Assembly: GCF_964199755.1 (NCBI RefSeq)
Contig: NC_133901.1
Location: forward strand, 27,802,397 to 27,866,396
Reading direction: 5' to 3'
Length of the DNA: 64,000 bases
Origin: Larus michahellis
Lineage: Eukaryota; Chordata; Aves; Charadriiformes; Laridae
Of this stretch, positions 38,257 through 64,000 are shown piece by piece. Under the pieces are notes generated by a model. It worked only from the letters and a program-made list of their open reading frames with translations. It ran no database searches and was not told where the DNA came from. Made by a program: the position numbers and the translations under genes. The first letter of the stretch is position 1, and each line of letters opens with the position of its first letter.

Positions 38257-41200
38257 CTGTACAATGGGGGGGAAAAAAAAAAAGAACAACCATTTTAAAT
38301 TTCTGTTCTTATCTGTAGTGAGAGGTCAAATAACGGTGCGAGCATGAATGAAGTCAGATTTTGGAGTTTTGTGATAGTAGTGCTTACGCCCTGTGTAAAG
38401 GAAACGGATTATGTTAATTTAGCAGAAAAAGCTAGGTTTTCCCTCACACTTCTCAAGTGAGATCCTGAGTGCTGTGGCTCCTTGCTGGCCCAGCAGGTGT
38501 GTGACTAATGGGAGTTTTGAGGCTTACGGGTGCTACAAGGGGGTGTATGTGTCTCGACTCTGCTGAATGTAGCAAAGCTGGGAGAAGCCTTACCTGCACA
38601 TGTACACTGCAAAGGAGATGAGAATGACGATAACAACTACGCCTACCACAACTCCAATAATGATGGCAACCGGCTGGTTCTCAGGCTCTGGGGGAGGATC
38701 TTTAACAGAAGAAGAAATAAGAGCACTGTCAGTGAAAGCTAACCGTACTGTGAACACGATTTTTTTTTTTTTTTCCTCGACCCTTGCCTATCTGCTTGGT
38801 TTATACTGTGCTCTCTGATCAATGTGGCTTTCTGGAGTGGTTTCAGACCCAGATCCTGTACGCTCTACAGAGCCCTGCTGTCATGCCTTCTAGCACCTCT
38901 CCACCGGGGGATCTGACCCCTTCTTTCTGCTTGGATCACCACAGGCTCTTACCCACCGAGTTACTAATTTACAGCATGGAAATGAAAAACAAGCTCAGTC
39001 TTCTCCATAATGACACCCATTTTTGAAAGTGGTGTGTAATGCAGAGAGTGAAATCCAAAATAGTTTTATTACCTATTTTTTCAGCCTCGCAGGTTTCTCC
39101 TGTGTACAATTCCGAACACTCACAGTGGAAGTGGGGAGAGGCACTGTTGGTAGTTTCAGAGCAAACTCCATCATTCTCACACGGATTTGGCATACATGGT
39201 CCACCTAGCAAAAAAGAAGGAGAAACCCTTCAGACTCTCTGATAATCCGACACTGAGAGAACTGTTCTTGTTTAGATTACGCTGACTCCTAATGCTGGAT
39301 ATTCCCTGTATTTTAATGTCAATTACTTGTACTTGACAAGAGGAATAAGGGAAAGAAACACTGTTTCTACGACGAAACATCAGAGCAAGATCCCAGGTAT
39401 GCTTTTCTTCTGTACACACTTTGTTGCAACTATCCCCCACCCAGTGATGTAAGCAGTAAGTCAAGACTTCTTAGCATCAAAGGCAATGTGATAGCGGTTG
39501 ACTCACTCCTGTAGCATCCACGACTGTAGTTTGAAATGCCACAGATTTCATCAGATCCACACACTATGTTAGAGCAGGAGACAGTGGAGCTTTCTGTGCA
39601 CTGGCATCTCTGAGAGCAGTCGTCAGTGGTGAATATTTCTCCAATCTGGAAGACAGCAGTTAAATGTTAAAAAAAAAATCAAATAAAATCAGCCAGAAAA
39701 ACCATGAGTGGAGCACTGGGGCCCATGCTGCGCTCTCCGATGCCTTCCTGATGAATGGCAACAGGGCAGATTTTTTTTTTTTTTCAGTAGTTTGTACAAA
39801 AAAGAAAGCAAGCAATTTACTAATCCATCTCTCTGAAAATCAAGAATGGCCCAAAAAAGAAGGCAAAAGAAGAGTAGGGGTATAAGATCCTAGCCTCAGG
39901 TGGGGTACGTGTGCAACCAACAATGCCTTAACTGTTGCTGGAGATACAAGAGAGTGGCAGATGAAACACCATGTCTCCAAGGCCACGTGGAAAGGCTATG
40001 TGACATATTTCCTGGCAAGTGCCACCTGTTAATAGCAAGTATCTGCCTCCTCCCATAAAACAATCTTTACTGGTTTAGGCCTTTTCTGTACCGAATCTCC
40101 AGTGTTACAGAAGAAATCTATGAGATTATGAAGCTGTTCTATCCTGCAGTGACAATGGAGGATTCTCCATATTCCTCAGAGTCCAGCCATGCCTGGGGCT
40201 CTCCATGTCACAGCCAACTCTACAGACTCTCAGCCCTGCCCATATCACTCTTCATTGAGAGGAGAGGGACCACAGTGACCAACAGAATTTCTCAGTAACT
40301 GGTGTGTTGTAAACTTCAGAGCATATGAGGCTATTATTTATTGTAATAAAGGTGAAGAATTAACACGGAGGTCAGAGTGTAATCATACACTTTCTCCAAG
40401 TGCTTGCCATGAGTATTTTGGCAGGCAGAGTTTGAGGCAGACCAAGTGATCTACTCTCTCTTCCTTTCTTCTAGAGACCAGAATTTTATTTAACAAATTG
40501 CTCTTGGTTTCTAATGCAAAACTATGTGCTGAGGAGAATGAGAGGATTGTCAAAATAATTAGCAGAAGAAAATATGGTTTGGTGCCGCGGGAGCTATCTG
40601 ACCCACAGAGAGACTGTACCTCATAATATTTGTTAAGGTACGTGCAGCCACATTGTTTGTAAGGCACGCAGTCAGAATCACTAAGAACATATCCAGGGAG
40701 ACATTCGCAGCCTTCAACACAAGGTGATTCGCACTCAGAGGGGCTGGTCAAGTCGTTGCAGGATGCTGGGCATGCAGACATGCATGAGCTGTAGTTGCTG
40801 TTAGCAGGACATGATATACCTGTAAAAATAGGGAGAGTCCAGTTATAGCAGGTTGCTGTGCATTACTTATTTACGCAATGCCCTTTGATAACCAGAGGAT
40901 GTTACCATTTTGAAGAAGGCAATATGATGAACGCACATACCAGAGATGTGCACACATGTATAATAGTACTGAAGTTGTAAGTAAAGCGCTCCGAAGTCAG
41001 GAAATGCATCATCAAAGCTATTTGTATGCTCTGCTCTTATTTCTGGTGGTCACTGATCTCAAATAACTTCTCACACATTCAGGGTAGCCATCCCTGCAAG
41101 TACCAGAGCTGTTTCACAACTCTGGGAACTGTGTTTCACCAGGAATACAAAGTCATCTAACCATGGGTGAGACAGGGGAAGTAGGGTTTGATCAATCTCC

Positions 41201-44200
41201 CAACTTGCAGAAAAAAAAGGTTTGAGATTATTGTAAGTTTTATTTCAGCATTTTTTAGTCTGAAAGATTTGGAGTTTTCAAATGCATCTTTTTTGTCTTG
41301 AAATTTCTCAGGAAAAAAAAAAAGAATTAGTATGTTTTGTAGATTTAAAAAGAGATTGAAATGAAATGTTTTTCCTTCAGATTTGTGGCTTGTGATGGTC
41401 TCCAAAATTTTAATTTTTTTGCCCAGTTGGGAATGGGGACATTTTTTTTCTCTCGCAAAACTTCTGATGATAGGGGAGCTGACCGCTCTGCCTTCCTAAG
41501 TAGCTTTCTAAGTGGGGGTCTAAATGCAAAAGTCAGCATAGGACACAGAAAGAAGGCCAGAGGAGCAAGTGTGCATGCTAAACTGTGAACAGTGATTGAG
41601 GTGTGAATCAACATGCTTTTACTCCATGAGAATCTTTGTTACATGGTACGTCTAGAAAAAGCCTCAAATCTCATATATTGAGAGACCTTTAGGCAGAAAC
41701 CATACTTTCTGGTTCTTTCTGTGCTTACCACAAACTGTCTGTTGCCTCCAGCCTTCCATCCTGACTCCTTGCTGCTGACAAGCCAGCACATATTCCTCCA
41801 GACTGCGACATAAGGTAGCATCGTCATCTTCCACACACATATCAAACAGGCAGCTCCTATGTGCAACATGAGAAAGCGTTCATTCCCAATATCTTTGTTA
41901 TTGTTAATTTTCAGCTGCTTTTCTGCCTGATTCTTAGTTACTTCCATTTTCCTGTATCTTGCTGACAGGGAAACAGAGGAATAAAAAAACCCCAAATCCA
42001 GCCACATGATTGGGAAGATCAGGTGACTTGTTGTGCAGCTGCTGCGAACACGCGAGGTATTCATATATGAAAAAGCAATCACCAGGTATCTGACTGCTTG
42101 TCACAGTAAGTTATTCTTTGCTGTCTCCTTCTGGTTTAGGCTAGCATGGCTATATATGGCTTATGGAGCACTTTTTCAGTGCTGCTCAGTCTTATAGCTG
42201 GACTACACAATTCTTTCAATACAGGGCTGCCCTCCCCGTGTCCATATGCCTTGAATATTGACACAGAATTCTGTTTTACCCAGTGTTTGTTTGCCAGTGC
42301 TACCTTCTCAGCTTTTCTCATCATCTGTGTATCCATGGCCCGATTTTCAGATCTGAGACGAATGGGATCTGCAAGTATGCAGCACCTCAGAAAAATCAGG
42401 CAACCACTAAGAAAGTCCCAACCAAATTATAGAGTGAAAAGTATGTTAAGAATGAGGATGTTTACATTGAAGCCAGTGGTCCAGTTTATTTGGCTTAAGA
42501 TACCTTCACATCCTTCTCACAACTAAGAGGGACTTTGAAGTGGACATTAGCTATCTTTAAACATTAGTTACAACTATATGACTAAAGAAAACTGGCAGCT
42601 ACTTGGCAATTTTGTGACTGATGATGGATGAATAGTGAATGTGGGGATGAATCAACCGGTTTCATACAGCTCAAAATTAATTGTGTAGGAATTGTATGTG
42701 CAGGAGGCCAGAGCAACCTTGAAACACAGCAGGGGGAACTTTCTTGAAGATACCGGGTTAGTTACTCTTCATTTATCTGTTTTTTGCATTTCTCCATGAA
42801 AGATTCAAGAAGTGTCACTGCCAGCTTCAGCCTTTTTGGCTATAGCATGAAGGCTATGTTTTATGAAGCTAGAATTGCGAAAAGGTACCTGAGCCAAGTA
42901 CCAAATTCTCACTGAATGTGGATGAGAACTGTAAGCACACTGGAAATCTCAGCTTAATGATTGACACTGCTGCTTTATCTGTGTAGGAAAAGAGGAAAGC
43001 TACTTTCTAGTGCTAACAGAAAAGTGAAACTCTAAACAAATGGAAAGATAGATCATCACAATTATTTAAAAATAAACAAGGGGAATTAAATTTATCAATA
43101 ACGGGATCACTGGGCCCTGTTCTCCAAAGACACTACTATCCTCAATTCCTATTAACACCCTGGAGACCGCAGATGCAAAGTTCTTGTCAGACACTAGCAC
43201 CAAAATGATTTTGCACATGGGGAGAACAACTGTCTGCAGTAGACACTTACGTGAAATAGAAATTTGGTGGGACCGTAGAATGACAATTCACAAAAGGACC
43301 ATTTGAGTCAATCAGGATATGACATGTAGAAGTGCTGTTTTCTTGCCCCAGCTCATTTTCATTGCAGCCTTGGAAGAGCCCTGGATCCGGTTCCTCCTCG
43401 GACTCATTTTTTGAATTGACATCTCGTCTGGAAGTGAAGTCATTATGAAACCATCAGTTCTCTGTACATCCAGCATTCATAGTGCTACTCTCTAAGTAAC
43501 AACACAAGAGTATTTCTGCCTTGTGGTGTAAGCGTAAGCTTATTTCTCTCTCATGATTTATCCTGAATGGGAAAGAGATAGATGAAGCAAATCACAGATG
43601 TACTAGAATGTTTCCTACCATCTCAGAGGTTTATTTAAATCAAAATGGATAAGTGTAATTATCTCTTTGGAAATTCTGCATGACACAGGCTTCATCCAAT
43701 GCCTCCTTCACCCAATCTATTCAGTAAAACTTGAATGTTAGTTAGAATGATGCAGCTGGAACAGACCACTGTTTCTTGGACGCATGCTCCCTTGCACTGA
43801 ACAGCTGGCTGCATCCCTGAAGTGCCAGAATTCTCCTGTAGGCACGGCCTCCAGAGCCCCTTTATGCTCAACACTAGCCTACGTACTGCTTTCTACTATT
43901 CTGGCAGACAAGTTTTTGCAGCAAATTATATCCTGACAGCTAATACAATTCCATTTACTTGCTGAAAAAGTTCTGCGTTAGTGGCTAAGCAACCTTGAGA
44001 GGTCTTTCAAAGCAAATTAAGAAGGAAGGAAGGAAACTTCTTTCCCCACCTGTTTCAATATTCTGTATGGACTAATTAGCACAGAATTTGCCTGACCACA
44101 AATATCATGCTCATTTATACTCAAGAGAATGTCCTTACTTTTTGTGTACTGGCAGAAATCACTATATAGCCACAAAAGCAAGGAAATCAGACTCTCCCAG

Positions 44201-47200
44201 AACCTCTTCTGGGAGGAACTGAGAATTCATCTTCATGTATTTCAAAGCTACCTTCATGTTCCTGAGGGAGGGATGACACTGAACCAGGATTTGCCCTCCC
44301 TCAGGCCCATCCAGCACAACTTGATGTACTTATCTTTGCCAGGAACCATGAGCAAAGATCTTTTTCATCCCCTTGCCCTAGCAGTTGTAATGGCTGTGAC
44401 TCCAAAGAGGGATACTGAACTGGTGTAATGCAATGATAGTTTGGGCCTCTTTTGGGTAGATAGAAGGGCACTGATAGTTCACCTTAGTGATGAGCAGGAA
44501 AAGTCCCTACACACAGAGCAAGGGAAGAAGAAAGAGCAGAAATAAGACAGTGTAGTTATTCCTGGATATTAACTATGGCTTAATTCACTCACTTCCAGTG
44601 GCTGTGCTTGCCATGGATTTAAGTAAAAAATTAAGTACCTGAGACGAGAAGTTGCTCTTTTTAGAGGAACTTTCCAGCTCTCACCAAATGCATTCACATT
44701 CCGCACCCAAACGCCATCTGGATTTGTGAAGTCATTTCTATATCTCCCATCAAAGTCACCACACAAGCCTTCCACTCTGTTCCTGTAGGTGTTGGCCAGC
44801 TTTATATCTAGGAAAGTTCAGAAGAAAAAAAGCCATTACACAGAAATCTTTGCTTCTGAGTGTATGGAAGAGGTGGAAAGCAGTGGCAAGTACCACATTT
44901 CATGATTCAGATCAGAGTTGGTCGTGTGACATGGGCCTCATACACAGGGTATGAACACAGCCCTGAACATATATATTCTTACATGTATTCACTGTTTCTG
45001 TGCTCTGCAACATGGATCATGAAAAAAGTAATTTCTTGCTGCCAATAAGTTACCATATAACATGACATCACCATCTGAGTGCTCTTCTTGCATACTGCTT
45101 ACTGCATTGCAACAAACTGAATGCATCACCCACTTTTTGGCCTTCATTTACAATCCACTTGCTCATTGAGAAACAGAATTCCTATAAAACAGACCTTTTC
45201 TTTCTGCAGTTGGAATTTTAGGGTTTGGAATGATAGTCATGTGTATAAATGGCCTGATACTTTTCCCATATACTCAGAAATAACGTGGCTATATTCTGTT
45301 GTAAATCAGAAGTAACTCTGCTTTGAACAGAGGAGGTAATGTGTGTTCAACTTACATGAGTGAGTTGTGTATACGTGATACAAGGGTCCTGCTGAGAAAA
45401 TAATGGGATTATCTGGAATAGGCTTGAGATGAAGCACGTAAAAGGATGCACTCACAACACATTTTGTTTTAATTTTCTGGAAGTTCATACCACAAAGGAC
45501 CATAGGCTCAAACAGTGAAGGTTTCTAATTTTGCCTTGGGTTTAGACCTTCTCTGGGATGAGAACATTTTTTGAGACAGTGCATAAATATTCCGGTACAT
45601 TGTCTTAGTATCACTTACCTGCATTTTGACTGCCATCAAAGCTCACGTATAAGCCAAAATCTGTCTCCAGGTAAATTCTTGTTGTCCTCCGATATATACG
45701 AATACCTTCATGAGGATGAGCAGGGGGTCTCACTGTCACACCATCCAACTAAGAGTGAAAGAATAAGTTTAAATTCATAATATATAGGCCAAATTAAAAT
45801 CTGGCTTCAGTACAGGTCAATGCTACAAATGAACACTCCTCCGGTTTTGTGATAAATGTATCAGACAATTTAACCAGGTAAAAACCGCAGTATTCATTTT
45901 TTTACAGTTAACAAAATCATGTATTGAGGAAAGTGATCTGGACACCGTATTTTCATATCATCCTAAGAGATATCTATTATTGAACTAAAAATGTATACAT
46001 GAGCTATGTGTACTCTTACGGACCAATAAAGAGGAAAGAAATAAAATTTTCCTAGCATAATTCACACTTTTCTTTTCCCTACCACTGATAAAAACTTGTA
46101 TGAGTTTATTGTAAGTCTTTGGATATTTGGGATTTTATTCTTAAATCTCTATTTATTCATTTATTTGTTTGAAGTAGAATTATATCCTTCATAGCTATAG
46201 AGAAAAAATACTCAACACAACAGAAAATCACATTTGTTGTTGCCTCATAGCACTGCTGTAATAATATAGTTAGCTTTAATACTTAAATTCTTCAGAACAG
46301 ACATTTATTATTCAAAGGTGTTTAACTCTAAGGCAAAGCCTTTCTCTGTGCTCTGGAGTCAGTGACAGACTTACCACTAGCTGCTTGTTCTGCCTGAACC
46401 GCACTGTATGATTGTAAACATTGATGAGAATCTCTTTCAGATAAGTAATGTGTCGACTTCGATAAAAAGGATAGTTCATGCCTTCAATGCTGAACTGCGT
46501 CAGAGTATCAGGTAGGTCAGGGATGGTCTGAGCCAGAATATATGTGTATTTCCCTTGAAAGTGGTGCACCAGACCATCGAAGGTGATGTAGTGTGGATCG
46601 CCCATGACCCGGCATTTCCCAAAACCTAAAGGAGAAGAGCTTCATTACTCTCCAGTCTAAATGTGCACGTGCCAGATCTCAAGTGTGGATCATTTTAACA
46701 TAAGTTAGATAAAAATGATTGCTGCTAGCATGCAGGTCTCTTAAAATAAAGATGGGTGCTCAGGCATCACCCTAGTGAATGGGCACTCAAATGGAGAGAC
46801 AGCCAGAGAAACTCATTCATCTGCTGAGAACCAGCACAAGCCAACTGAACTGAAGCAGAACATTAGGGTTTATAGGCTTTATAGAGACTAAGCTGTGCAC
46901 ATCGGTTCTCTGCAGAAGAATATCTCTGCCACACAGCATGGCTTGCAGTGGGCTCTTAGGGATGTCAGTTTCATAATCCTCAGCAATGTGTTGCTACAAA
47001 ATTATTGGAACATGAAATGCAATGTCTAATTTTGGCTGGCTCACTGCTGTCACACTGATTGCTTCTGAGGTTACTAAATTGATCATTGCATTCACCAGAC
47101 CTAACAATCAGATGCAGCAACTATTGTCTAAGTATTCTCCTTGACTATTAAGAACAGGGCAAACCATTATCCCAGGAACAAGGCTCTCCCTAAGACTGCT

Positions 47201-50200
47201 GGGGTGCCTCTGCTGTGGTATTTTGCCAACATGGAGCAGGAGGAAGCTGTATTTGCATTATGCTCTTGTACTGACCATCAATACAGTAGGACCTATGCCA
47301 TACTGTTCTTCAACATTGAAGTGTAAAGTCACGAGGCAACAAGCTATTTCCTAAACAATCTAATTTACCCAGAGAATATGGGAACTGAGGTTCTCTGACT
47401 GGCCTGTTACATGTCTGTTCAGATGTGCTCTGTCCTGTTTTGCCTTTATTTTTTCTCTTCTCAAATCAACATGCAATGTAAAAAACCGAATCATTGCCAT
47501 TGCGATTCATGGATATAGCTGAGTTTTGGTTTTAGTATATGCAGTGCAAATCTTTTATTTATTTATTTATTTAAACTAGTCAGACTGAACTGTGAAATGT
47601 CTAGATTTAAGTAAATTTTCAAACTTTTGTTCCACTTCCCTCTACAAATTCTCTGTCTTGTACTGGAACTTTCAATTCTGAGAAGAGGTCTTTTTGTGTT
47701 CAATAATGTGCCATCAGTAGCACTGTCAGAGCTTCCTTCGTTCCTGTGGAAAAGACTGGAAGCACCACGGAAGAAAGAATAGACACTAATACCCTTCCTC
47801 CTTCTCCAGCCCTCATGGAACGCCAAGTGAAGATCTGCCCGCACATACCTGTTGGATTGCACTTATGTTTTCCATTTTTGATCACGCAGGTTTCCTTAGA
47901 ATCACAGCTATAGCTCTTACATTTGATGACACCGTTCTTCTCACACTGGCATCTTTTGGTGCAGTGTGGAGTTATCCAGGTCTCCCCAGCCTGAATGCAA
48001 GTTGTATTAATAATATGTTACCAAAGTGCTCAGCTTTGCAGTGCAATAAAAGTTCAATAGCAAAGGGGCTGGCTAGGTGCACCCTGTCTAGTTGGCAATT
48101 CCTATACTACTCGATCCAGGCATAGTCTCACCAAGAGCCTAGGAAGGGGGGATCTCAGTCCATTTATCTTTCTGTCTTCGACATGAGAATTTGAACACAA
48201 AGCAGGACTAGGACATACTGCTTGAATAACTCTGATCAACCAACTAGTTTAGAATATGCCTCGATTTTGGCCTCAGGTGCAAAGTACCAAGATCCTGCAC
48301 CTCCTAATGCCTTAGTCTGCAATTTTTACTGATCAGATGAAAGATATTTAAGAGGTAGACCCAGAAGATTTCTTTATCTCTCATTCAGATGAACAGGAGA
48401 CCAACTTTCTACAAGTTTTGCAGCCAGAGATTTGCTCCACAGACAAACTACTTACACTGTAGTAATTGTTGTCATCATCCCTGCAGCCACAATTGCTCAG
48501 AGGTACACACTTGCCATTACTGAGCACATAATTATCAGCACACTCACAGCCCTCTGTGCACTCTTCTGTCTTCTCACAAAGGGAAGAGGCAAAAATGTCA
48601 TTGCATGTTGATGGGCAGGTGGAGACACAGTCTGTGTAATAGCTGTGAGATGGACAGGGCAATGCTGTGTGGTTGAAGAGAATAAAATCAGCGTTATTAA
48701 GTACATTTAGAAATTGCACGGCAAACACATATGCCTGCCTGAAAGCTACCACTTGGCCTGTAAAATGGCAGTACAGAATTGCCTTTTAATGTCTGATTTT
48801 GACCATCAACCAGTTTTGATTTTTTATATTTTATTTTAAAAACCAACCAAAACAGAGAGCCCCCTCTGAAGCTGCTTATTCAGTTCTATTACAGACTCAG
48901 TATTCCAGTTCAGCTGCAAATGGGCACTGCTAGAAATGAAAATCTTTAGGCAAGTTCCTTAGAATGCTCAACCCTCCAGTGATGCTGAACAGACGTGTAT
49001 CTAGCTTAACCATAGACATAAACACATGCAAGAACAAAAGACATGCATTGTTAGAGTGAAGATTCATCTAGCTCTATACCCAGTTTCTGCCAGTGACTAG
49101 AGATGCGTAAGGGGACAGACAGTTCAAGAAACAGGGTAGCAGGACAAAGGGTTTGTTTGTCCAGTATTTTTCTCCACTTGTGGCAATGAGGCAACTAGGA
49201 ATTTCTGATGGGCCTATTCACCATTCATCTGGCTTGGTTTTTAACCAGTTAATTGTTTTGCCCCCCACAACATTATGTGATAATTAGTTCCACAATGTAA
49301 TACTAAATTGTGAAAAAAGCAACAAAAAGAAACCCACTGTGTAATCTTTACTCATTTTTACATAATTTGTTTGTAGCTTTGTTGAATGGGTGGAGTGAGG
49401 CACATACATCGGAAATTAATCTGAGAATGTGGCCCTTAATAAGCAACTAGCCAAATAGTCAGTTTTCGTTCAAAACACAGTGAGTAGCATTGAGCCCTGT
49501 GTCCTAATATGGTATCCCCCTTTGTTTTAGTCTTATGATTATATTATTTCTCCATTTTAGGCTCATTGCAATATCTCATGGCACTCATTTGGCTACTAAA
49601 GGCATTCTAACTCCACATTACTACACAAAACTTGTCTAGTCCTGAATTATCACTGGGTTTAGCTCAACCAGAACACAGTTCAGCGCAACAATGGAGTCAT
49701 AAAATCATAATAATAGAATTGCATTTTGTGAGAATTTGGGGTTAACTTTCTTTTATACAACTTGTTCACCTAACACTGCTAATTCATTTTCATGCTATCA
49801 GCCATCCAAGTTTCAGTGTTTTCACTTGCTTGTGCACTTACGACAGAATGTGCTGTTCCTCCATTTAATGGTGATTCCATAATTCCTGCAGGTGTCCACG
49901 TAGAATTGAACTATGTCACAGAGAGCAGACTTCATGCCATCATACTGACACATGTCATAGATGCAGATCCGTATGAAGTCTTCAGGCTTGACTAGATTAT
50001 GACATGCTTTGAATTTGTCTGATTTTAGGACATTGCACTGGCTTTCAATGACTGGTTTATTCTCAGCAGTGCAAGGAGGAACATCATCTTCTCTTAAGTC
50101 TGGTAAACAGCTGCATAAAAGCACAGACAGAGCTGCATTTAAATTTCAAAGACATATAAAAGACAGAGACTGAAACTGAAAATTGGTTTCTACTAAAAGT

Positions 50201-53200
50201 TATTAAGCAAGTAACGCTAGAGACTACAGTCTTCTTTCTGTCTATGACTGAAAGATTAGGAAGAATTAGACCTGCCTGGCAATCACATACTGCGTCTGAC
50301 CCTCGTTACTCTCACTGAACTTGCCCCTGACTAGAGGGTTGATTTCTCAGCTTTACCTTGGATCTGCCTGGTCACTGCAAACTTGTGTGGTGATCTGGAC
50401 TCTTGGCTGACCCTGGCTTCCACACTTGGACCTGCCCTGCTTGCCTTCCTCGGGTAGTGTGGGATGGGCTCTGGCTGGTGAGGCCACTGTTCTCTCAGCT
50501 GTGTTATCACACTTGGCTCCCTGTCCCTTGGGGAGCAGCTGGCCCTCACTGTTCCCCAACACCATTGCCCTGCTCTAGGTGTTTTCAGTGTAAAATATGA
50601 GAAGCTATGCTACACTGTGGACTGCCCCAAAGCCTAATTCCCCAGGTCTGTATGTAGATCAGTAGAATGGCTGTGGTTTCCCTCTGGCCCATCCAGTGGT
50701 TTCCTGTGGTGATGGCTTTTTTTTGAGCTTCAAATTGAGGAAAAGAAATGTCTCCTATACACTGCTTATATGTAACAAAGTATCAGTCAAAACAATTGAA
50801 TGGAGTCTGTTTACTAAAGGAAAATGGAAGATAAGAAAAGAAGTTACATTTACCCTGCATCACTGTCTTCCTCCACTTTCCAGCTATTTCCAAACTGTGC
50901 AACATTGACGAGTGTACCATTGGGCAAGGACAGGTCATCTTCACGATCATCATTAAAGTTACCACACATTCCCTGTACCTGCAAATCAATGAGAACCATA
51001 TTCTCAGCACAATCCGTTCTACATCAGCTTCCCCAAAAACTTCTTATTCATTGCCTATGAAATGATGTGACCAAATCACCACCAACAACCAATCTCATAC
51101 CAGAATTTTCAGACATACTCACTAGTGTCTGACTTCACCCATGGAGAAATAAAATAGAAACTGCAGTAAATCTGTGGTTCCCTAAGGCTTCAAGGTGTTT
51201 ACTTTTATAAGTTGGATGTATTCCCCTACCCAGGTCATTTTCTCTAGCTACCCTCTTGGAACACAAGGAAATTGTTGTGAAGAGAAAAAAATAGAAAGGA
51301 AAAAAATTACATGTGTTACAATACAGCTACAAAGAAAGATGCAACAGCAAACCACAGGATTCAAAGAAATTAAAAGTAAATGCACAAAGCAGAGGTTTGG
51401 AAACAGTGCCAGATGTTTACATATTAAATCTTACCTTTGAAAAATAAGAGTGTGGGAGGGTGATTTCCAGGTGGTGATCACCATCATATTTCACTATCAT
51501 GCCAAAGTCAGTTTCCAATACTATAAATCTGCCAACGTTTCCAATGGACACGCCTCGCAACCGGTTCTCCATTGGAGTGTAGACTCTCTCATTGTTCAGC
51601 TGGAGAGACATGTCATTTGTCAGTATGGACATTCTTCCATGAAAGCTTTTCTGCTCACAATCGATATTCCTTGCGGTGCTGAAGATTTATCTATGACAGT
51701 ACACTTCCACCATTGCATATTCCAACTATGGGTTGCAGGAATCAGCCTTTTAGCTGAGGAGAGCTGGGCAAGACCCACAGCCTGTGCCTTTAACAGGGTG
51801 CTGGAAAGATCCCTGGTAGTGAGCTAGTTCTCACCCACTCATCCATAGGATTCCCTGCCTCCAGTACTGCCACATGCTATTCTAGACCAATACAGTATGA
51901 CTTGCTTTTATTCTGCTCTTTTTAGCCAGCTATAAGTGATTGGGTTTTGGGTTGACAACAGCTACTGAAGTGGGAAGCCCCATTCTTTAGTTCAGGCAAC
52001 AGTTCCCTGGAGGGTCTGGGCTCCATCTCCAAGATATGGCCAATAGAACAGTAAATCCAAACTAGCGAGAAATTATATTTCCCCATGATATCCAGTTAAT
52101 TAAAGTGCCCACAAGCACATGCGTACATATTCCTTAGGAAACATGAAGATCCTTTTTCCTACAGCTACTGTAGTGAACTAATTTTAAGATACTTCTTGCC
52201 AGAATAAAGAGCACCACCACCTACCAGGATTCCTTGGTTTTTCTGAAGGGTGATTCGTACACCATACACATCTACGTAGACTTCTTTCAGGTATGTGGCC
52301 CCTCTTAGTCCTCTGTCTTCATTCTTGCCAAGGATGGTTATAGGAATGACACTATTGCTGTTGACAACCTCAACTAAGGTGTAGGTGCAGGTACCCACAA
52401 AAGTGTACATCAGTCCATCAAAAGTGAAATAATGGGGATCTCCTGCCACTTGACACGTTGCTTGGCCTGCAAGTGAAAAAATAATCTAAGAATTTTGGAC
52501 TGGATTTCACCATGGACTCAGCTGACAAAAGATGTTTGCATTAGTGCAGCAACCTAATCCCTATCGTTATTACACGGGCAAACCTTCACAGTGGTATCTC
52601 AAGTTCATGCCAATGACGTTTATTTGGAAATAAGAAATTTCCAGAAAGTGTCTCCTAAATGTAATTTGCAAATTATGTACAAACTGGCAACTTGGCAGCA
52701 AATGAACCTCTTTATACATTTCTATATGTTGTTGTAGGCATTATTTATGGTAGCTGAGAGTAATACAGAGCTTTTCTACTTAACTATATAAAAATTCATA
52801 ATTATATATATAAATATAGATCTAAATATAAAAGTAAATAAATTTGCATCTATACACATAGATACTTAACGCATTTGTCATCACCCAGACTCTCAGAAAT
52901 GCAGTTCTCAATTACTCCCAAATTTAGAGCTTGCAGCACTGTGATGTGGGACTTGAATTTGTATTATCAGGACAAAAGGAACCCAAGCGACCTTACAAGC
53001 TTTTGGGTAGCATCAGTTTTTGCTGACATCCACTACAACAGAAAGGAATCTGTGCTTGCAAGACAGATCATCATGTCTTTTCAGCAATTATTTGTGACTT
53101 CTTGCCATAACATATGAAAAGGTATTTATAATAAAGCTAGAAGGAGAAGAAGGATTTAATTATGGAATTGACATTAAGAACCACTTTCAGGCAGGACTTA

Positions 53201-56200: not shown

Positions 56201-59200
56201 GACTGCAGGGGCTCCCCAATGCAGGGAATATCTACAGAATTTCAGATAAAGTATCTGTAATACATGCAATGGTAGTGCCCCCTGAACTATTTCTTTTAGC
56301 AAGCAGAGTGCAAGTCACTATAAAGCAAAGAGCAGCTATGTCTCCCTGCACACATTCTCAGATAAACTTCATGGATACATTGGCACTGTCTGAATGGTTG
56401 ACATATCTTCACCAAGCACTTATGAGTTTTATGTTGGCCATTCACACTGGAGGTTTTATATGCTTCTGATGTGAACTCAGAGCAACAGACTATAGAGAGG
56501 GTCCAACACAAGCTATAAAGTGCTCCATCATATGATTCATACTACCTGTTGGGTCTGTGATCATGCCACACATTGTGTTCTTCTTTGCTTCACTTTCCAG
56601 CGCAGGATCACATTTCTCTTCTGTCCCGCTTGAGCATCTGGGGAAAGCAAGCAATATCAAGTGTGCGTTTCACATTTCTTACTATCTGATTTTCAGTGAA
56701 AGATTGACACACGACAACCCTGCACAACAGGGTGTATTTTATTAGTTACATGACTTTATCCAGCTTCTTTGAAAAGCTGATGTCAGCCTTATCACTGAAT
56801 GGTCTCCCTTTTTCATGCCTTCTGGGCTATTCAAACGCTTATTCTTATCTGAAAAAAAGACCTATGGGATCCAATCAGTTATAGTTTCCAATCAGGGAAA
56901 TGGACTGAAGTCCCATCCCCCTTCACACTCAGCAGACAGTTCCTGATTTGGAAAACAAGACTTAAAGGACACAAGCCCTCTTCTCATTCCCTGTTTAATC
57001 TAATGGAGCAGCTCCCTACTTCTAATGGGCAGTTGGAAGATGTAAAATGGGACTGGATGACAAAGCCAGTAAGTGCTTTATAGAGTTTGATTAGCAAATG
57101 CCATGTGATTAAATTAATATACATACATAGTGTTATTCTCAGGTACAAGCCAGCTTTGTCCAAGATCGTTGGTACCACTTGCAACGTCACCATTGGGCTT
57201 TATGTTGTCATCATTTGGATCACCATTATAATTACCTGTGAGGGTAAAAAGAGATTTATGGGACACATGAAGTTCACACCTGTAGAAAAAATCTAGGTTT
57301 CAGATGTAAAATAAATTACTATCAACTAGGGAGAATATACATGCAACATCAATCTGTACTGGGCAAAATAAGAAGAGCTCAATCGTGTTTTAGGCTTTGA
57401 TCACTGACATGAGCTGCCGTGCAGAGACCTGTGGACTTGAAGCAAGAAGACTGTAAGTTTCTATGTAACTACATCACATCGCATACAAGAAAGAATCATT
57501 TTTCTAGAATCAATACTAGAAAAACCCAACTCATTTGCTTGGATCCTACTTGTAGAATGTTGGACTAAAAATCAAGTGTTGTTACTTGCAACATTATATT
57601 CTTAGGTAGATTTCCTGAATGGAAAGTGTGAAAAACCCATGAAGACATAGTTGAACTAGGAAATTTCAGTTGATCCAAATCAATCCAAACCAAAATAATC
57701 AGCAACTCACAAGACAAGCTACTCTTGCAATTTCCATCCTGAAGTACATCTCATATAATCACCTGGATTTCAGAATGTTGTTCCAACTAAACCTGCTCAA
57801 GTTCAGGCATTAGCAACATTGCTGATGAGAAATTACTGGTCACTACTAATTCCAGCGAGCTCCTACTCTCGTTAGCTACATAAGCCACCTGTGACTCTTA
57901 CTTATTTTGCTATCCTATTGCAATAGAATTTCTTACAGAACACAGTAGAATGTGCCCTTTGCATCTGATCTTTCTCACAGGACTCTAAAATACCTCTATA
58001 TTTTGTATCATATATAGCACTTAATATTTTGTGGTATCTGAATTTTGGAAATGAAGTATGAATTTTCCTTGTTATTCATCAAGTCTATCAGGTCAGGATT
58101 ATCCATTTTTGATCCTTGTCATTGTTTTGTTTTAATGTAGACAGTGCCTATCTTAGCTGGAAGAAAAAGTAGGTAAAAATAAGTGTTTTCTTTCTTTTTC
58201 TGTTATTTCATCTTTTTCTTTTCCTTTCATCATAAAAACGTGATCATTCAGGTTGTATAAATACCTCCTAAAATAGCACAGGAAAACAGCAGCAGGAAAG
58301 TTTGAGGATGCTGACAGTAAGCGCTCTGCTAAAAATGTTATTTGTAGTTATACCTCACAACATTCCAAATGGACAGCATGTTACCAGGAATTATGTAAGT
58401 AACAGTTCTGAGAAACTGAAAAATTCTAGCACGTTTTCTTCACTGCTGTAAATTCTAGTCCATTTGACAAGCACTAGTTGCGTGGAGAGTAAGTATGATA
58501 TGCTAAGGAAAAACGTTTACGTAATCACCAGCCTCCGTAACTCACTAAAAAGAGACTAAGCCTATGACTTACCACAGAGGCCACAGAGCAGACCACTGTA
58601 AATAGAGGGCACAGAGACTTCTGCATAGTGATTTCCATCGTATCTCACCCACAGTCCAAAGTCAGTTTCCAGGAGAACATATCCACCACTGCTCTGAATA
58701 CTGATCTTTTCCATAAACACAGGCAGGTTCATTCTGCTGCCATTCACCTGTACAGTAAGTTGTAAAAGTTAGTGTATGTCTGCTGGGACTCCTAGAGATG
58801 CCAGCAGCTACAAAACATTAGTGGCAGATATGATCTTGTGCACAAGGTAACTGGAAGAAATAATAATAATTTCATCTGAGCAAATCTGTTGGACATATCA
58901 TCAAAAAGGGGTACATTTAACTAATAAAAAGAGAAAGTTTGCTATGAACTCTACAGTCAGAGAAAATATTTCATTATCTGAATGTCAGTTTAAAAGTATT
59001 ACATATGTTGTTTAAACAAGTATTTTCTTACATTCACTTTCTTGTTTTTCAGCAAAGAAATCTGGTTGCCATAGACTTCCACTTGCACTGACTTCACATA
59101 AGAGACTTTGGTGTTGGCTCCTCTGTGCTCATTCGTTGTGGACACATCAAAGTATGGAAGGCTCTCAGAGACGTTGCACACTTTGGAGAGCGTGTAAGTG

Positions 59201-62200
59201 CAATTTCCCATGAAATTATGAACTCTGTGGTCAAAAGTGTTATAATGTGGATCCCCAGAGGCACTGCAGAAAGCACGGCCTGGTGAGAAAGAAAGACAGA
59301 ATAATTCCCTCGAGTCTCTACTAGACTTCTGCAGTTGCTCTCTTCCCACTTTGTTTTACTTTGCAATTTCTGCTCAGATATAACAGTGATGGCATCAGTA
59401 AAGAACATTCCAAAGCCCAGCCGAGCCTCCCACCTTTGGACCCATAAAGAATATCTAATCTTATGTATCAGAAATCTATGGTAGAGGTTGGGGAAGCGCT
59501 TAAAACTGGAGGAAAGAAGCACCTAAAAATTATGTTATATCCAAAATAAAAACAGAATTTGGAAGTTAAATACATTTTCAATATACCATGAACACCTGTA
59601 TAACACGTGAAAACTTGCCATAGAAAAGGCAAAAAAATATTTATGGACATGGCAATAAAGGGTGTGTGAGATAACTATAGGCAGCTGGTGTACTGTTCCC
59701 AAAGACCCCAACAATGTGGCAAAAGAGATCCAAGGCAGGACACCAGAAAGAGTCCGACCACTGAAGGACTGTCCCAAAAGCGTGATTGGGTGAGCAAGAA
59801 AAAGCTCTCACCCTCCAGTATAAAAACTCTGTCACTTGGCTGCAGGTCCTGTATTAAGAAACTTGAGCAGTTATGACAGGCAGTAAGAGTTGGGGATGGG
59901 ACGTGGCAGTACCTGAGCTGGGTGTGGGCATTGGAGGTGATGGCGTGTGTGCAGTCTGCGCCGTAGTGCTTGGTGAGGGTGTTGTGGGTTGTGACGTCGA
60001 GGGACCTGCCAAAAGAGAGAGTTAGAGAAGACCTGCGTCAACATAGGAGTTTTGTTGCAGGCAGCTGGTCCATCCTTCCCAAACACCCCAACACTGTGAC
60101 CAGAGAGGACCAGGCCAGGGATTGCACAGTGACTCCTCAGCAGAGAGTTCTGCACTCAAGCGATCTCCAAACAGCATTACTGGGTAACAAAAGAACATGC
60201 GCAGCCCCTTCACTACAGCCGCTCCATCCCATGGTCGCGGGCCTTGGAGGGAGTGAAATGAACAGCTGCCACGAGCAGTAGAAGATGGGCAGGGAGCACG
60301 AGAGTACCTGAGCTCGGTGTGGGTGTTGATGGTGATGGTGTCTGTGGAAGCTGCGTTGTAATGCCTGGCAATGTTGTCGCGGGTTGTGAAGTCAATGTAC
60401 CTGGCACAAGAGAGAGTTATAAGAGATCTGCACCAACGGGGGAGTTTTGTTGCAGGCAGCCGGTGCACCCTTCCCATACGCCCCAACACCGTAACCAGAA
60501 AGGCCCAGGGCAGGAGTCGCAGGCTGTCATCCCAGAAAGAGCCCTGCCGCTCCAGGGCTCTCCCACCAGCACAGCTGTGTGACAAACGCAGATTAGGCAC
60601 TTCAGTACCTCTGCTCAATGTCTTGGCTGTGGGCCTTGCGATACATGAACTAAATAGTGACTGCAGGCAGTGCCAGCGCTCCAGCCTCCCAGAGGTAAGC
60701 CTGCTTGGTTGGGCACAGGCTGCATCACTGACCTACAGGGCGCTGCAAAGACAACCGGTGCTCCTGCCTGTAGCACAGCGGGCCACCTCAGTGGGTGACA
60801 TCTCTCAAGCTGCCCTTCCCCAAGCCGAGCCTTGTACCTGCACGTGGATGGGAGAGAACAGTACCTGTGCTCGTCTCGGGCGCTGGTGCTGTTGTATGTG
60901 GAGGCCGCGTTGAAGTGTCTGGCAAGGGGGCCGAGGTGGTAGGAGCTGGTGGATGCACAGTGAAACAGAGGTGGAGAAGATGTGTTTCACAATGAGGACT
61001 TGTTCCCAAATGGGGATGTTACACCTTTCCCAAACACCCCCACACCATGGCCAAAGGAGCGCAGAATACTTACCACAGACAGTGCCAGCACTCCAGTCTC
61101 CCAGAGAAACGCCTGCCTCAGCACAGGCTGCTGCATAGGCCCCCAGGTCATTGCAGAGCTGCTCCGTGCTGCCACCAGTGGCACACTGGTCATAGACACA
61201 GCTCTCAAAGTACGTCTCGGGTGGCAGAACTGCGTGGCATGACTGGAATGGGCCACCAAGTTGCGTGAGGATTGCACACTGCTTGTTAGCTGCCTCCTCC
61301 TCGGAGGGGGAGCAGGACACAGGTGGGATGATGGCCGGGTCACACCTGCAGAACAGACAGACAGCCCTGAGCCCACGGCAGCCTGTGGGCCCCCAACCAG
61401 ACAGTTTCCTGACCTCCTTCCCAGCCAAAACCTCAGCCTCTGTAGTCCAGACCCCTCACTAAGACAAGGCACCCATGGTTGTCACTTGCAAGGGTGAACA
61501 ACATGCCCCACAGTCACCACCCTCCTCCATGGCATCAGGTGGACAGAAACAAATGGCCAAGGCAGTTGCAACCGCAACAGCTTGGGAGAAGATTCATGCC
61601 AAGGCCCCGGGCCACTCTCTCTGGGGGCAGGAACTGTGAGACGCAGCACGTGGAGTGGGATGGCAGGGCCGTGCATGGAGATGACTGAGGACCCCAGACC
61701 AGAGCGCCTACGGGGAGAGAGCACCGTGCACCCCGACCGCATGGAGGGACCCGGACACTGCCCCAGGCAAGCCAGCCTTGAGGGGAAAGGGGAATGGCCA
61801 CACTTCTGGCACCCAGTTGCAGCGAGGACGTGCCACTGGTGGGTGGATCAGAGAGAGGAGACACGAGGACGATACATCTGCTGCTGTGGAACCTCACGTG
61901 CTCTCACCCGCTTTCCCACCACTGCCTGCCTCCTCTCCCTTGCCCCGTGCCTGCCATTACCAACCCTTCCTCCTTGTGCCCCTCACAGCTCCCCTCTCCC
62001 ACGCTCCCTTTTGTCCGTCCCCTACGGGACGGAACAAGGACTCACAGCCACTCATCATCCGGCACCATCCAGCTGGCTCCAAAGTCGTTGAAGTCCGGCA
62101 CGACAACCCCATCGGGTCGCATGAAGTCATCCTGCTGGCTCCCGGTGTACGTCCCACACAGCCCACACAGCTTGCCCTTGTGCTTCTCAGACACCCTCAC

Positions 62201-64000
62201 CAAGAGCTCATGGTCCCCATTGAACTGCAGCTGCAGGCCCAGCTTGGTAGAAACCCGCACGTAGGAGCCACTCAGGGAGACGGTCACACCAGGGGCAGGA
62301 GAGGCCGGCAGGGAGGCCAGAGCACCGTTGATCTGAATAAGGGGGAGAGAGGGAGACAGAAGCATAAGGCAATGCCCTCCACTGGGAGGTCACTGTGCTT
62401 CCCTGCGGTGGTGCCAGGGCCCAGTGAGTCAGAATGGCACGAGAAACCCTGCCCAGGCCTACGAGAACAGCAGCTCCTCTACATACGGCACACTGAAGGC
62501 TCAGGAAAACAAGCCGAAAATCCGTTGCTGCGCAAGCAGCCCCATCTGCCCCGCTCAGAGCCTCACCGTGCTCTTCTGTGAGCATGCCAGCAGGCTCAGG
62601 GAATATCAAGCTCTGCTTGGGGACAGAGTGGTACTCAATGGTGCCTAGGGCATCTGTTGTTCCCAGGTGTGAAAATGAGGGGCTTACGTAGACCGCCTTG
62701 TTCTGGCGCAGTGCAATGTGGAGGCCTTCCATGGAGAGTGCCACAGAGTTCAGAGCTGTCCATGTCCGGCTGCCGCGATGTTTGTTGCGGGTGGTGACAG
62801 TGAAGCCAACGGAGGAGTTGTCACAGCCCGTCACCACCGTGTAGTTGCAGGAGCCCTGGAAGTGGTGAAGCTTCCCATCGAAGGTGCTGTAATGCGGGTC
62901 ACCGTAGATGTGGCAGAGAGCAGTGCTGGCTGGGTAACAGCCCCTCTGGCCATTCTGGATCTTGCAGACCTCGTCCTCGCCACAGGACAACGTAGAGCAA
63001 ACCATCTGGCCGTGGGCTTCACACCGGCACTGCCGAGTGCAGTTCTTGTTCACAGAGTACTCGCCTTGCTGCAGGCAGAGAAACACCGAGCGTCAGCGTA
63101 TCAGGCAAGAAATAGGGGCAAGGGAGTGCCCTGGGAGGGGTGCAAGCCAGGGCAAGGCTTTCACTCACGCTGTAGTAGATCCCCTCAAAGAGGCAGCCAC
63201 AGTGGGCCTCAGGCACACAGGTGTCTCCGCTGAGGAAGAAGCCAGAGTTACACGCACAGCCCTCCATGCAGGGCTTGGAGCAGTTCTGCGGGGCTTGTCG
63301 GTCAACACAGGTGGCAGGACAGCCAGTCGTGCAAGGGTCATAGTAGCTGTTGGCGGGGCAAGGCAGGGCTGCAACGGCAAGGGGACAATTAGGACCAGCA
63401 CGCCTTCAAGGAAGGATGACCTTCTGGGAAGGGGAAGACCAAAGACTTGCTTTGGCCAGAGGGTCTGGGCGTGGGGAGCAGCACATCCCCCTTCTGGCAA
63501 CTGCAAGGCAGGTACTCACGGCAGAAAGTGGTGTTCCTCCAGGGAAGGACAGTCACGCCGACTGCCTGGCATGCATCAGCGTAGGCCTCCAGAGCAGCAC
63601 ACAGGACCTCCTGGCCACCATTCAGGGCACAAAGGTCATAGAAACAGGTGTCAAAGTAGTTCTGGGGGTTGATCACAGCGTGGCACCTCTCAAAAGAGCC
63701 AGGCCTGGCAGTCAGCATGCCACAGAACTGGTCCGATCGGTAGAGCTTCTCCTCTTCTGCGCTGCAGGGTGGGGAGGGGACGGGGACACCGCAAGAGGAG
63801 TCATTGTCTGGGACCTGCCAGCTCTCCCCCAGCTCGTTGGAGTCTGCGGCTTGCTGCCCATTGGGCATCATGTAATCGTCCTCTCTGCGGTTGTTGAAGT
63901 TCCCGCACATGCCACAGGTCAGGTTGAAGTAGGCAGTGGGCACCTTCACCTCCACCGAGTGGTCAGTGTCGTAGGACACTCGGAGGTTGAAGTCTGTCTC
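38112..64000 (-). CDS. zonadhesin-like protein: VWD/C8/TIL repeats, EGF, one TM (5' end outside window)
   Basis: Large cell-surface or secreted-type adhesive glycoprotein related to zonadhesin (a sperm protein that binds the egg coat) and to FCGBP and mucins. Thirty-one exons in transcript order: 64000-63520 (continues outside), 63368-63169, 63068-62688, 62332-62046, 61345-61074, 60945-60865, 60400-60308, 60005-59913, 59279-59032, 58747-58573, 57235-57127, 56637-56546, 55947-55771, 53851-53649, 53346-53202, 52466-52225, 51599-51435, 50978-50854, 50110-49842, 48664-48456, 47990-47849, 46625-46375, 45748-45619, 44807-44639, 43427-43251, 41856-41729, 40819-40620, 39645-39507, 39204-39073, 38699-38594, 38256-38112. 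They total 5766 bases, 1921 residues and a stop, with every junction in phase. Order: partial VWD-C8, TIL, TILa-VWD-C8, Pro/Thr/Ser linker, VWD-C8, TIL, TILa, VWD-C8, TIL, TILa, VWD-C8, TIL, TILa, EGF, TM, tail. EGF plus TM at the C terminus fits zonadhesin rather than FCGBP, but orthology to mammalian ZAN is not shown. It lies in tandem behind PLAAT1. Confidence 0.88.
38594..38699 (-). CDS. zonadhesin-like: transmembrane helix
   Basis: Encodes a Pro-rich stem (DPPPEPENQP) and a strongly hydrophobic helix starting VAIIIGVVVGVVVIVILISF, followed by AVYMCR. It ends in phase 2. Orientation is expected to be type I, with the VWD repeats outside the cell. Confidence 0.93.
39073..39204 (-). CDS. 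zonadhesin-like: EGF domain
   Basis: A single phase 1-1 exon encodes an EGF-like domain with six cysteines: GPCMPNPCENDGVC, then FHCECSELYTGETC. It has no calcium-binding signature at its start. An EGF domain just before the membrane helix is the arrangement of zonadhesin. Confidence 0.92.
   Translation of the reverse strand: MDHVCQIRVRMMEFALKLPTVPLPTSTVSVRNCTQEKPARLKK
39507..40819 (-). CDS. zonadhesin-like: TIL 4 and TILa after assembly E
   Basis: Exon 40819-40620 is TIL (CPANSNYSSCMSACPASCND, CVEGCECLPGYVLSDSDC, CGCTYLNKYYE). Exon 39645-39507 is TILa (CSQRCQCTESSTVSCSNIVC, CGISNYSRGCYR). TILa ends in phase 1 and leads to the EGF exon. Confidence 0.9.
41729..46625 (-). CDS. zonadhesin-like: assembly E, VWD and C8
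   Basis: Exons 46625-46375, 45748-45619, 44807-44639, 43427-43251 and 41856-41729. VWD begins KCRVMGDPHYITFDGLVHHF but the next conserved Cys is Tyr (QGKYTYILAQTI), the following Cys is Ile, CGxCG is reduced to EGLCGDFDG, and SWKVPLKRATSRLRRD lacks the closing Cys. A long acidic insert (NESEEEPDPG) precedes C8. C8 reads TCHILIDSNGPFVNCHSTVP, SCLFDMCVEDD and ends WRQQTVC. Confidence 0.9.
47554..47574. repeat. (ATTT)n microsatellite
   Basis: About five ATTT units in the intron between the TILa exon at 47849 and the VWD exon at 46625. Confidence 0.85.
47849..48664 (-). CDS. zonadhesin-like: TIL 3 and TILa after assembly D
   Basis: Exon 48664-48456 is TIL (CVSTCPSTCNDIF, CTEGCECADNYVLSNGKC, SNCGCRDDDNNYYS). 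Exon 47990-47849 is TILa (HCTKRCQCEKNGVIKCKSYS, CVIKNGKHKCNPTG). Phases 1-0 and 0-1, as for the other pairs. Confidence 0.91.
49842..52466 (-). CDS. zonadhesin-like: assembly D, VWD and C8
   Basis: Exons 52466-52225, 51599-51435, 50978-50854 and 50110-49842. VWD begins TCQVAGDPHYFTFDGLMYTF and keeps GTCTYTL, but the Cys normally eight residues later is Val, and the first Cys of CGxCG is Gln (VQGMCGNFND). SWKVEEDSDAGC retains its Cys. C8 reads QCNVLKSDKFKACHNL, FIRICIYDMCQYDG and ends WRNSTFC. Confidence 0.91.
52780..52870. repeat. AT-rich low-complexity stretch
   Basis: TATATA/TAAATA-rich sequence in the intron between 52467 and 53201 of the zonadhesin-like gene. Confidence 0.75.
53202..53851 (-). 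CDS. zonadhesin-like: TIL 2 and TILa after assembly C
   Basis: Exon 53851-53649 is a TIL domain (CGTRCPSTCLNISAADSC, VEGCFCKEGYVLSGDKC, CGCVDDKNQYHQ). Its donor is AG|GCAAGT, a GC rather than GT donor, with otherwise perfect consensus. Exon 53346-53202 is the TILa module (CTERCTCKANNTIVCTPWEC, CSIQDGVLGCHSN) ending in phase 1. Confidence 0.91.
53852..55770 (-). other. longest intron of the zonadhesin-like gene
   Basis: A 1.9 kb intron between C8 of assembly C and TIL 2. It contains A/T-rich stretches (for example A runs at 54938-54966) but no exon or element I recognise. Other introns over 1 kb (41857-43250, 43428-44638, 46626-47848, 48665-49841, 57236-58572) likewise show nothing beyond simple repeats. 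Confidence 0.65.
55771..59279 (-). CDS. zonadhesin-like: assembly C, VWD and C8
   Basis: Exons 59279-59032, 58747-58573, 57235-57127, 56637-56546 and 55947-55771. VWD starts FCSASGDPHYNTFDHRVHNF, keeps GNCTYTLSKVC, carries LLCGLCGNYNGDPNDDN and SWLVPENNTIC, so its disulfide cysteines are all present. C8 reads KNTMCGMITD, FKDCHTKVPPENFFENCVYD, CFTGGQ and ends WRNATLC. It directly follows the linker exons. Confidence 0.91.
59913..60945 (-). CDS. zonadhesin-like: three Pro/Thr/Ser-rich linker exons
   Basis: Three symmetric phase 1-1 exons, 60945-60865 (81 bases), 60400-60308 (93) and 60005-59913 (93), encode a mucin-like linker of about 89 residues. Examples are PDTSTRPPHTTAPAPETSTG, TLPGITTQLPQTPSPSTPTP and SPSTTAQTAHTPSPPMPTP. 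There is no cysteine, and the many Ser/Thr next to Pro suggest dense O-glycosylation. Each has clean CAG acceptor and GTACT donor sites. The linker replaces the TIL and TILa modules expected between assemblies B and C. Confidence 0.85.
60660..60830 (-). pseudogene. decayed copy of the C8 exon inside an intron
   Basis: The plus-strand stretch from about 60663 (CAGTGCCAGCGCTCCAGCC, CTCCCAGAG, GCACAGGCTGC) closely matches the assembly B C8 exon end at 61080-61135 (CAGTGCCAGCACTCCAGTC, CTCCCAGAG, GCACAGGCTGC). Similarity fades towards 60830. The copy has indels and lost its GT donor (GCAGTC in place of GTAAGT), so it is not coding. It lies between linker exons 1 and 2. Confidence 0.75.
61074..61345 (-). 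CDS. zonadhesin-like: assembly B, C8 domain
   Basis: C8 domain with CDPAIIPPVSCSPSEEEAAN, QCAILTQLGGPFQSCH, PETYFESCVYDQCATGG, CNDLGAYAAACAEAGVSLGDW and the final C. It ends in phase 1, the phase at which a TIL exon normally follows; here a mucin-like exon follows instead. Confidence 0.93.
62046..62332 (-). CDS. zonadhesin-like: assembly B, second half of VWD
   Basis: Encodes SYVRVSTKLGLQLQFNGDHE, KLCGLCGTYTGSQQDDFM with an intact CGLCG and FGASWMVPDDEWL. It is one 287-base exon where assemblies C, D and E use two exons. Confidence 0.92.
62688..63068 (-). CDS. zonadhesin-like: assembly B, TILa plus first half of VWD in one exon
   Basis: A 127-codon exon holds a TILa (E) module (CTRQCRCEAHGQMVC, GCYPAS) joined to the start of a VWD domain (LCHIYGDPHYSTFDGKLHHF, then GSCNYTVVTGC). 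In the other assemblies these two modules are on separate exons of about 145 and 245 bases. Confidence 0.92.
63169..63368 (-). CDS. zonadhesin-like: TIL domain 1
   Basis: Cys-rich trypsin-inhibitor-like domain: CPANSYYDPC, TGCPATCVD, CSKPCMEGCACNSGFFLSG and CVPEAHCGC. The exon enters in phase 1 and ends in phase 0, the pattern of all TIL exons in this gene. Confidence 0.92.
63520..64000 (-). CDS. zonadhesin-like: assembly A, end of VWD plus C8 (partial exon)
   Basis: Reads from the window edge with ETDFNLRVSYDTDHSVEV, the second half of a VWD domain, then TCGMCGNFNNR with an intact CGxCG, SWQVPDNDSSCG, and a full C8 domain ending WRNTTFC. VWD end and C8 share one exon here, whereas in the later assemblies they are separate. 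The exon continues beyond 64000. Confidence 0.9.

Follow-up and report, generated by a model that had tools for sequence, protein, structure and literature searches.

A window of 64,000 nucleotides from Larus michahellis (assembly GCF_964199755.1, contig NC_133901.1, positions 27,802,397 to 27,866,396) carries on its minus strand the downstream part of a gene for which Pfam scans and open frames give the order MAM domain, fifteen VWD-C8 modules, EGF-like domain and hydrophobic segment. Five of the modules, referred to as A to E, are found inside or at the edge of the window, and ten more, together with the MAM domain, lie upstream, from the window edge outward. The VWD domains of the last two modules, D (14th) and E (15th), lack cysteines that correspond to complete disulfide pairs, one pair in D and two in E. 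This paired loss is real but ordinary, since a number of other genes in the genome show the same pattern.

In both D and E, the C8 domain scores above the Pfam cut-off and is followed by a TIL domain (49.3 bits after D; after E, TIL and TILa pieces that were joined by eye before the scan), such that each is a VWD-C8-TIL, or D, assembly. The MAM match is 103.3 bits (exons joined by eye), and the gene thus combines MAM, tandem D assemblies, EGF and a transmembrane helix, the last judged by eye. We take this series to be the layout of zonadhesin, a sperm-adhesion protein. By its architecture the gene would be zonadhesin-like, where the label covers layout and not orthology. Further marks of such genes would be a position between Epo and Ephb4 (the AchE-Tfr2 locus) and, for zonadhesin itself, acrosomal expression in sperm and binding to the egg coat. 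The likeness to zonadhesin and ZanL presumably extends over MAM, tandem VWD assemblies, EGF and membrane segment; the difference is that fifteen assemblies and near-identical 8.1-kb units are found here.

In the rebuilt exons (Table 1), module D spans 52466-49842 and module E spans 46625-41729. Modules C, D and E comprise 14 VWD-C8 exons, which join at GT-AG borders to give open frames. A sequence-only reading of the window had placed the losses in an interval whose ends turn out to be exon ends, 52466 being the first base of the first D exon and 41729 the last base of the last C8 exon of E. Both domains match the Pfam VWD family PF00094 (132.7 bits for D, 119.5 bits for E; cut-off 22.9).

The six VWD cysteines are denoted C1 to C6, equivalent to 867, 889, 898, 993, 996 and 1031 of VWF. 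Two losses had been proposed in D and four in E, and all six are confirmed by codons in the rebuilt exons. In D, residue 898, eight positions after the Cys of GTC, is Val (codon GTC, 52365-52363), and residue 993, in VQGMCG, is Gln (CAG, 50975-50973). In E, the residues at 889, 898, 993 and 1031 are Tyr (TAC, 46548-46546), Ile (ATC, 46524-46522), Glu (GAA, 44772-44770) and Arg (CGA, 43426-43424), respectively. Five of these six codons are two or three bases away from a Cys codon (E-889 is one base away), and single sequencing errors therefore do not account for the set. Position 1031 of E is assigned to CGA because a phase-2 intron just 5' of this codon, common to B, C, D and E, marks it; B, C and D have a Cys codon (TGT or TGC) there. 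If only the multiple alignment is used, which is gapped at the longer linker of E, a Pro of E stands in the 1031 column, a non-Cys residue either way. Between Trp and the first C8 Cys, the linker comprises 33 residues in E as compared to 18 in A, 19 in B, 17 in C and 22 in D.

The cysteines that remain are two in the VWD of E (867 and 996) and four in that of D, the linker Cys included. Both modules also retain GDPH, and in each the C8 domain has a Cys in every one of its eight columns. The VWF D3 VWD belongs to the same family and has the same six positions, paired C1-5, C2-6 and C3-4 according to the cited passages of PMC9737082; compared to it, D lacks C3 and C4, i.e., the C3-4 disulfide, and E lacks C2, C3, C4 and C6, i.e., C3-4 and C2-6. 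The same passages describe FCGBP VWDs as having mostly six cysteines, hence six cysteines are not a strict VWD criterion. Within the gene, CGxCG is retained in the 13 other modules and gone only in D and E, and module A, completed from the genome beyond the window edge, has all six VWD cysteines. A few motifs of the earlier reading are adjusted at the same time. The cysteines of A are kept, but its motif reads CGMCG instead of CGLCG; the picture of losses relative to B and C holds, but B reads GSCNYTVVTGC, with V in place of the L of GxCxYxLxxxC; and D keeps the Cys expected after SWxVP, but reads SWKVE and receives this Cys from the next exon.

The pairing 898-993 and 889-1031, already proposed in the sequence-only reading, is supported by the literature, by an FCGBP disulfide and by covariation within the genome. 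Residue C4097 of FCGBP is located 15 residues past the GDPH His, H4082, which is the same spacing as that from the corresponding His to 889 in VWF. Because of this distance from GDPH, the C4097-C4255 disulfide of FCGBP D10, described in the cited part of PMC10880436, is taken as C2-C6. In the part of PMC9737082 referred to above, analogy with VWF is the ground on which the VWD disulfides are given as C1-5, C2-6 and C3-4. Alignment of the VWD domains with solved chains, suggested earlier as a check, brings the Cys columns into register for both FCGBP and VWF.

A search for VWD in 1.405 Gb of genome yielded 115 matches, from which a table of 31 distinct domains was compiled. It leaves out 45 of the 115 matches (our own count), those on contigs C1, C4 and C12, as well as seven near-identical copies (M5, M8 and M11, represented by M2; M7 and M10, by M4; M9 and M12, by M6) and one domain on C31 (1460002) for which the first half was not found. 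All 15 ways to pair the six positions were scored over 93 cells (31 domains with three pairs each). The VWF pairing leaves 2 of the 93 cells discordant, and the next best of the 14 other pairings leaves 10. For 898/993, both cysteines are gone in 7 domains, one in 1 and none in 23; for 889/1031, the corresponding numbers are 3, 1 and 27; for 867/996, both are gone in 1 domain and both are present in 30. With this pairing, the exon models agree with the proposal that D lacks one whole pair and E two, with no orphan partner left behind.

Seven domains are without C3-C4. Besides D and E, they are five domains at three loci outside this gene, with one module on C31, one on C21 and three in a single gene on C2. 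The C2-C6 pair is gone from E and from two terminal VWDs on C31, and the C1-C5 pair is gone once, on C31. Confinement of the loss to membrane-proximal domains was considered and is ruled out, since other loci show the same loss. On C31, domain C31m6 lacks 898/993, and its sister in the tree, C31p6 (support 81.6/85), has both. With random loss over six positions, full pairing would have a probability of 0.2 for each of D and E. Among the domains of the table, 7 of 8 loss episodes are paired when related copies are grouped by us; the chance of seven or more is 1.3e-4, or 1.8e-3 for 6 of 8 if the C21 module that has an additional Cys is not scored as clean.

At C31:1412994-1414885, a VWD without C1 and C5 has GDPH present; autocleavage would leave halves without a C1-C5 link.

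Other proteins offer partial parallels. One terminal C31 VWD, when compared with solved structures, is most similar to the terminal VWD of human FCGBP, in which the 889 Cys is absent and no Cys follows the Trp within the aligned stretch, which leaves out the last eight residues of the chain. This isolated terminal VWD has lost the whole C2-C6 pair, like E, both in human and in two copies of the present genome. It differs from E in that it retains C3-C4 and ends the protein, whereas E has also lost C3-C4 and is followed by C8, TIL, EGF and the hydrophobic segment. In the gene on C2, which we take to be SCO-spondin-like, all three VWDs lack the 898 and 993 equivalents, as do D and E, but 889/1031 are retained there.

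Because paired loss recurs elsewhere, the losses in D and E are best described as ordinary compensatory loss of dispensable staples. We consider it probable, with good confidence, that whole structural disulfides have been lost by compensation in two membrane-proximal VWDs of a cell-surface protein of zonadhesin-like build. Secreted domains pay a cost for a free cysteine. Upon loss of the first Cys of a staple, the partner would become a free thiol that may mispair in the secretory pathway, and loss of the partner would therefore follow. In this manner D would have dropped the C3-C4 staple (898-993), and E both C3-C4 and C2-C6 (889-1031), the latter a presumed tether from the VWD beta-sandwich to the VWD-C8 linker. 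Both would keep the C1-C5 bond (867-996), which would span the GDPH site covalently, plus a complete C8. The bonds thus appear to differ in need, C3-C4 being the most dispensable, C2-C6 the next and C1-C5 nearly fixed in this sample, and E would represent the extreme of the scale with one VWD bond left. The C1-C5 bond would hold the first strand after GDPH cleavage, as described in the cited parts of PMC10880436 and PMC9737082. A looser VWD-C8 hinge beside the membrane stalk is likely in E because C2-C6 is gone and the linker is longer.

The loss of CGxCG could instead reflect functional retuning, where removal of C4 of the motif (CGxC5G) and of its partner C3 would exclude D and E from disulfide-linked oligomers or from exchange with the C1-C5 tether. 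The restriction of the motif loss within the gene to the two membrane-nearest modules fits this idea, as does the role of CGxCG in mucin multimerization in the cited part of PMC9737082, where a link to disulfide exchange, already noted in the sequence-only reading, is indeed printed for mucins and FCGBP. However, the same C3-C4 loss occurs in the five domains at three other loci, and the second pair lost from E is unrelated to the motif. In addition, both motif cysteines are already bonded in the VWF pairing, and for that reason the simpler reading of the loss in D and E is that of a structural staple. Retuning is therefore unlikely; participation in disulfide exchange is possible and would need more than sequence can give. 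It is very unlikely that the loss of C4 also removed a thiol able to attack C1-C5, turning D and E into locked, exchange-resistant tethers, while the tethers of the 13 outer modules would be open to exchange. The membrane-proximal VWDs would then have been stripped toward a single GDPH-spanning bond, and in each of these modules one disulfide would hold a cleaved ectodomain in place.

That the missing cysteines reside in unrecognized exons or splice variants has very little probability. The gene models are built from genomic sequence, the intron lies directly before VQGMCG in D as opposed to after CGLCG in C, and the linker position of E is set by the intron and not by alignment, all of which leave room for such an artefact; yet the GT-AG joins of C, D and E give open frames, the alignment is ungapped at 889, 898 and 993, and, of the six lost codons, D-898, E-889, E-898 and E-993 are well within exons. 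Random loss of cysteines under relaxed constraint is just as improbable. The branches of D and E are long (about 0.9 and 1.1 substitutions per site, respectively), though those of other domains are longer (2.3 for C21_4 and 1.6 for C31p9), and decay is at odds with the retention of eight C8 cysteines, C1-C5, GDPH and splice borders in both modules. Random loss would also leave orphans (p 0.02 for E alone and p 0.08 for D alone, over 14 cysteines).

A number of observations weigh against compensatory loss as described above or against the counts on which it draws. One C21 domain (C21:5344063/5342937) has lost 889 and 993, the latter with a Cys two residues upstream of its place, and has kept 898 and, it appears, 1031; this odd domain, 1 of 31, may possibly hold a rewired or orphan Cys. 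Another, C21:5341236, has an extra Cys five residues past 889. Domains inside one gene are related and are not independent counts. The letters at 1031 were entered by hand, while the other five positions were read by pattern, and the C2-C6 loss in the two terminal C31 VWDs would presume that no further exon supplies a Cys. As to GDPH cleavage, the cited part of PMC10082768 reports that MUC2 GDPH is intact in CHO cells and cut only after acid. Finally, the 898/993 loss shared by D and E may be a single event, since a topology with D and E as sisters is not rejected (approximately unbiased test, p 0.226). The tree covers 23 of the 31 domains and 233 columns, the five VWD-core Cys columns and the junction and linker columns being excluded; it groups D, at moderate support (87.2/78), with modules 1, 2, 4 and C and gives E no resolved position, such that there may have been either one or two C3-C4 losses.

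The odd C21 domain described above (C21:5342937-5344887), whose CGxCG Cys comes two residues early, also has fewer linker cysteines than its neighbour, and disulfide rewiring is possible there.

In this sample, the loss of VWD disulfides takes out complete bonds, more than once and in the rank order C3-4 (most often), C2-6 and C1-5 (once), and domain connectivity is readable, without a structure, from the paralogues of one genome. Module E is a natural VWD with one predicted disulfide and could serve as a probe for the role of the other two in the VWD-C8 hinge, in GDPH cleavage and in folding.

Table 1. Features of the zonadhesin-like gene; positions refer to the window unless a contig (C10) is given.
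Feature	Position	Strand	Remarks
Whole zonadhesin-like gene	C10:27841000-27902400 (window 38593-64000 + upstream)	-	
B VWD	62045..63092	-	open frames with both halves; all six Cys; linker Cys in next exon
C VWD exon 1	59032..59279	-	reference for comparison; all six VWD Cys present
C further exons	58747-58573, 57235-57127, 56637-56546, 55947-55771	-	
D VWD exon 1	52225..52466	-	GDPH; Cys 867 and 889 equivalents retained; 898 = Val
D VWD exon 2	51435..51599	-	without Cys
D VWD exon 3	50854..50978	-	VQGMCG; 993 = Gln; 996 retained
D linker and C8 exon	49842..50110	-	begins with retained 1031-equivalent Cys (TGT, 50109-50107); 8 C8 Cys
E VWD exon 1	46375..46625	-	GDPH; Cys 867 retained; 889 = Tyr; 898 = Ile
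E VWD exon 2	45619..45748	-	without Cys; detected by profile search only
E VWD exon 3	44639..44807	-	VEGLCG; 993 = Glu; 996 retained
E linker and first C8 exon	43251..43427	-	first full codon CGA (Arg) in place of 1031-equivalent Cys
E second C8 exon	41729..41856	-	last module of the gene
TIL domain after module E	40386..40862	-	open frame; TILa segment in next frame, 39666-39433
EGF-like domain	38972..39229	-	open frame; Pfam match 28.7 bits
Hydrophobic segment, putative transmembrane helix	38593..38787	-	open frame; judged by eye

Keratin-family matches (150 scored) form clusters on two contigs of the genome, and the two that were read resemble feather keratins, as is to be expected of a bird. 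A gene of zonadhesin-like layout is present in this genome, though the cited passages of PMC9275260, which place zonadhesin-like genes in turtles, alligator, fishes and platypus, report no Zan or ZanL in birds; a turkey study, in the part cited (PMC6562755), names an annotated zonadhesin-like gene. A literature search that combined zonadhesin with CGLCG found no paper, and an NCBIfam scan of module E matched no family.

At the window edge and upstream (C10:27863000-27885000), the gene contains an array of tandem 8,094-bp units with three VWD modules each. In 14 of 14 1-kb steps from 27863000 to 27876999, the sequence is 99.5-100% identical to that 8,094 bp further on, which would point to very recent amplification or gene conversion. 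A tandem repeat scan of window positions 38-64 kb gave one short array only. In module A (C10:27866829-27867542), GDPH is changed to SDPH (HVHSDPH), and the near-identical sisters M2, M5 and M8 retain GDPH. No TIL was recognized after the C8 of module B (window 61050-59300) in the open-frame listing and in a pattern search that missed the real TIL after D; some open frames in this region look rich in Pro, Thr and Ser. A motif search for neighbouring genes within the 64-kb window gave no lead. By eye, an open frame at window 34795-34367 on the minus strand, with an NCEHFV motif, resembles a phospholipase A/acyltransferase (PLAAT/LRAT) exon.

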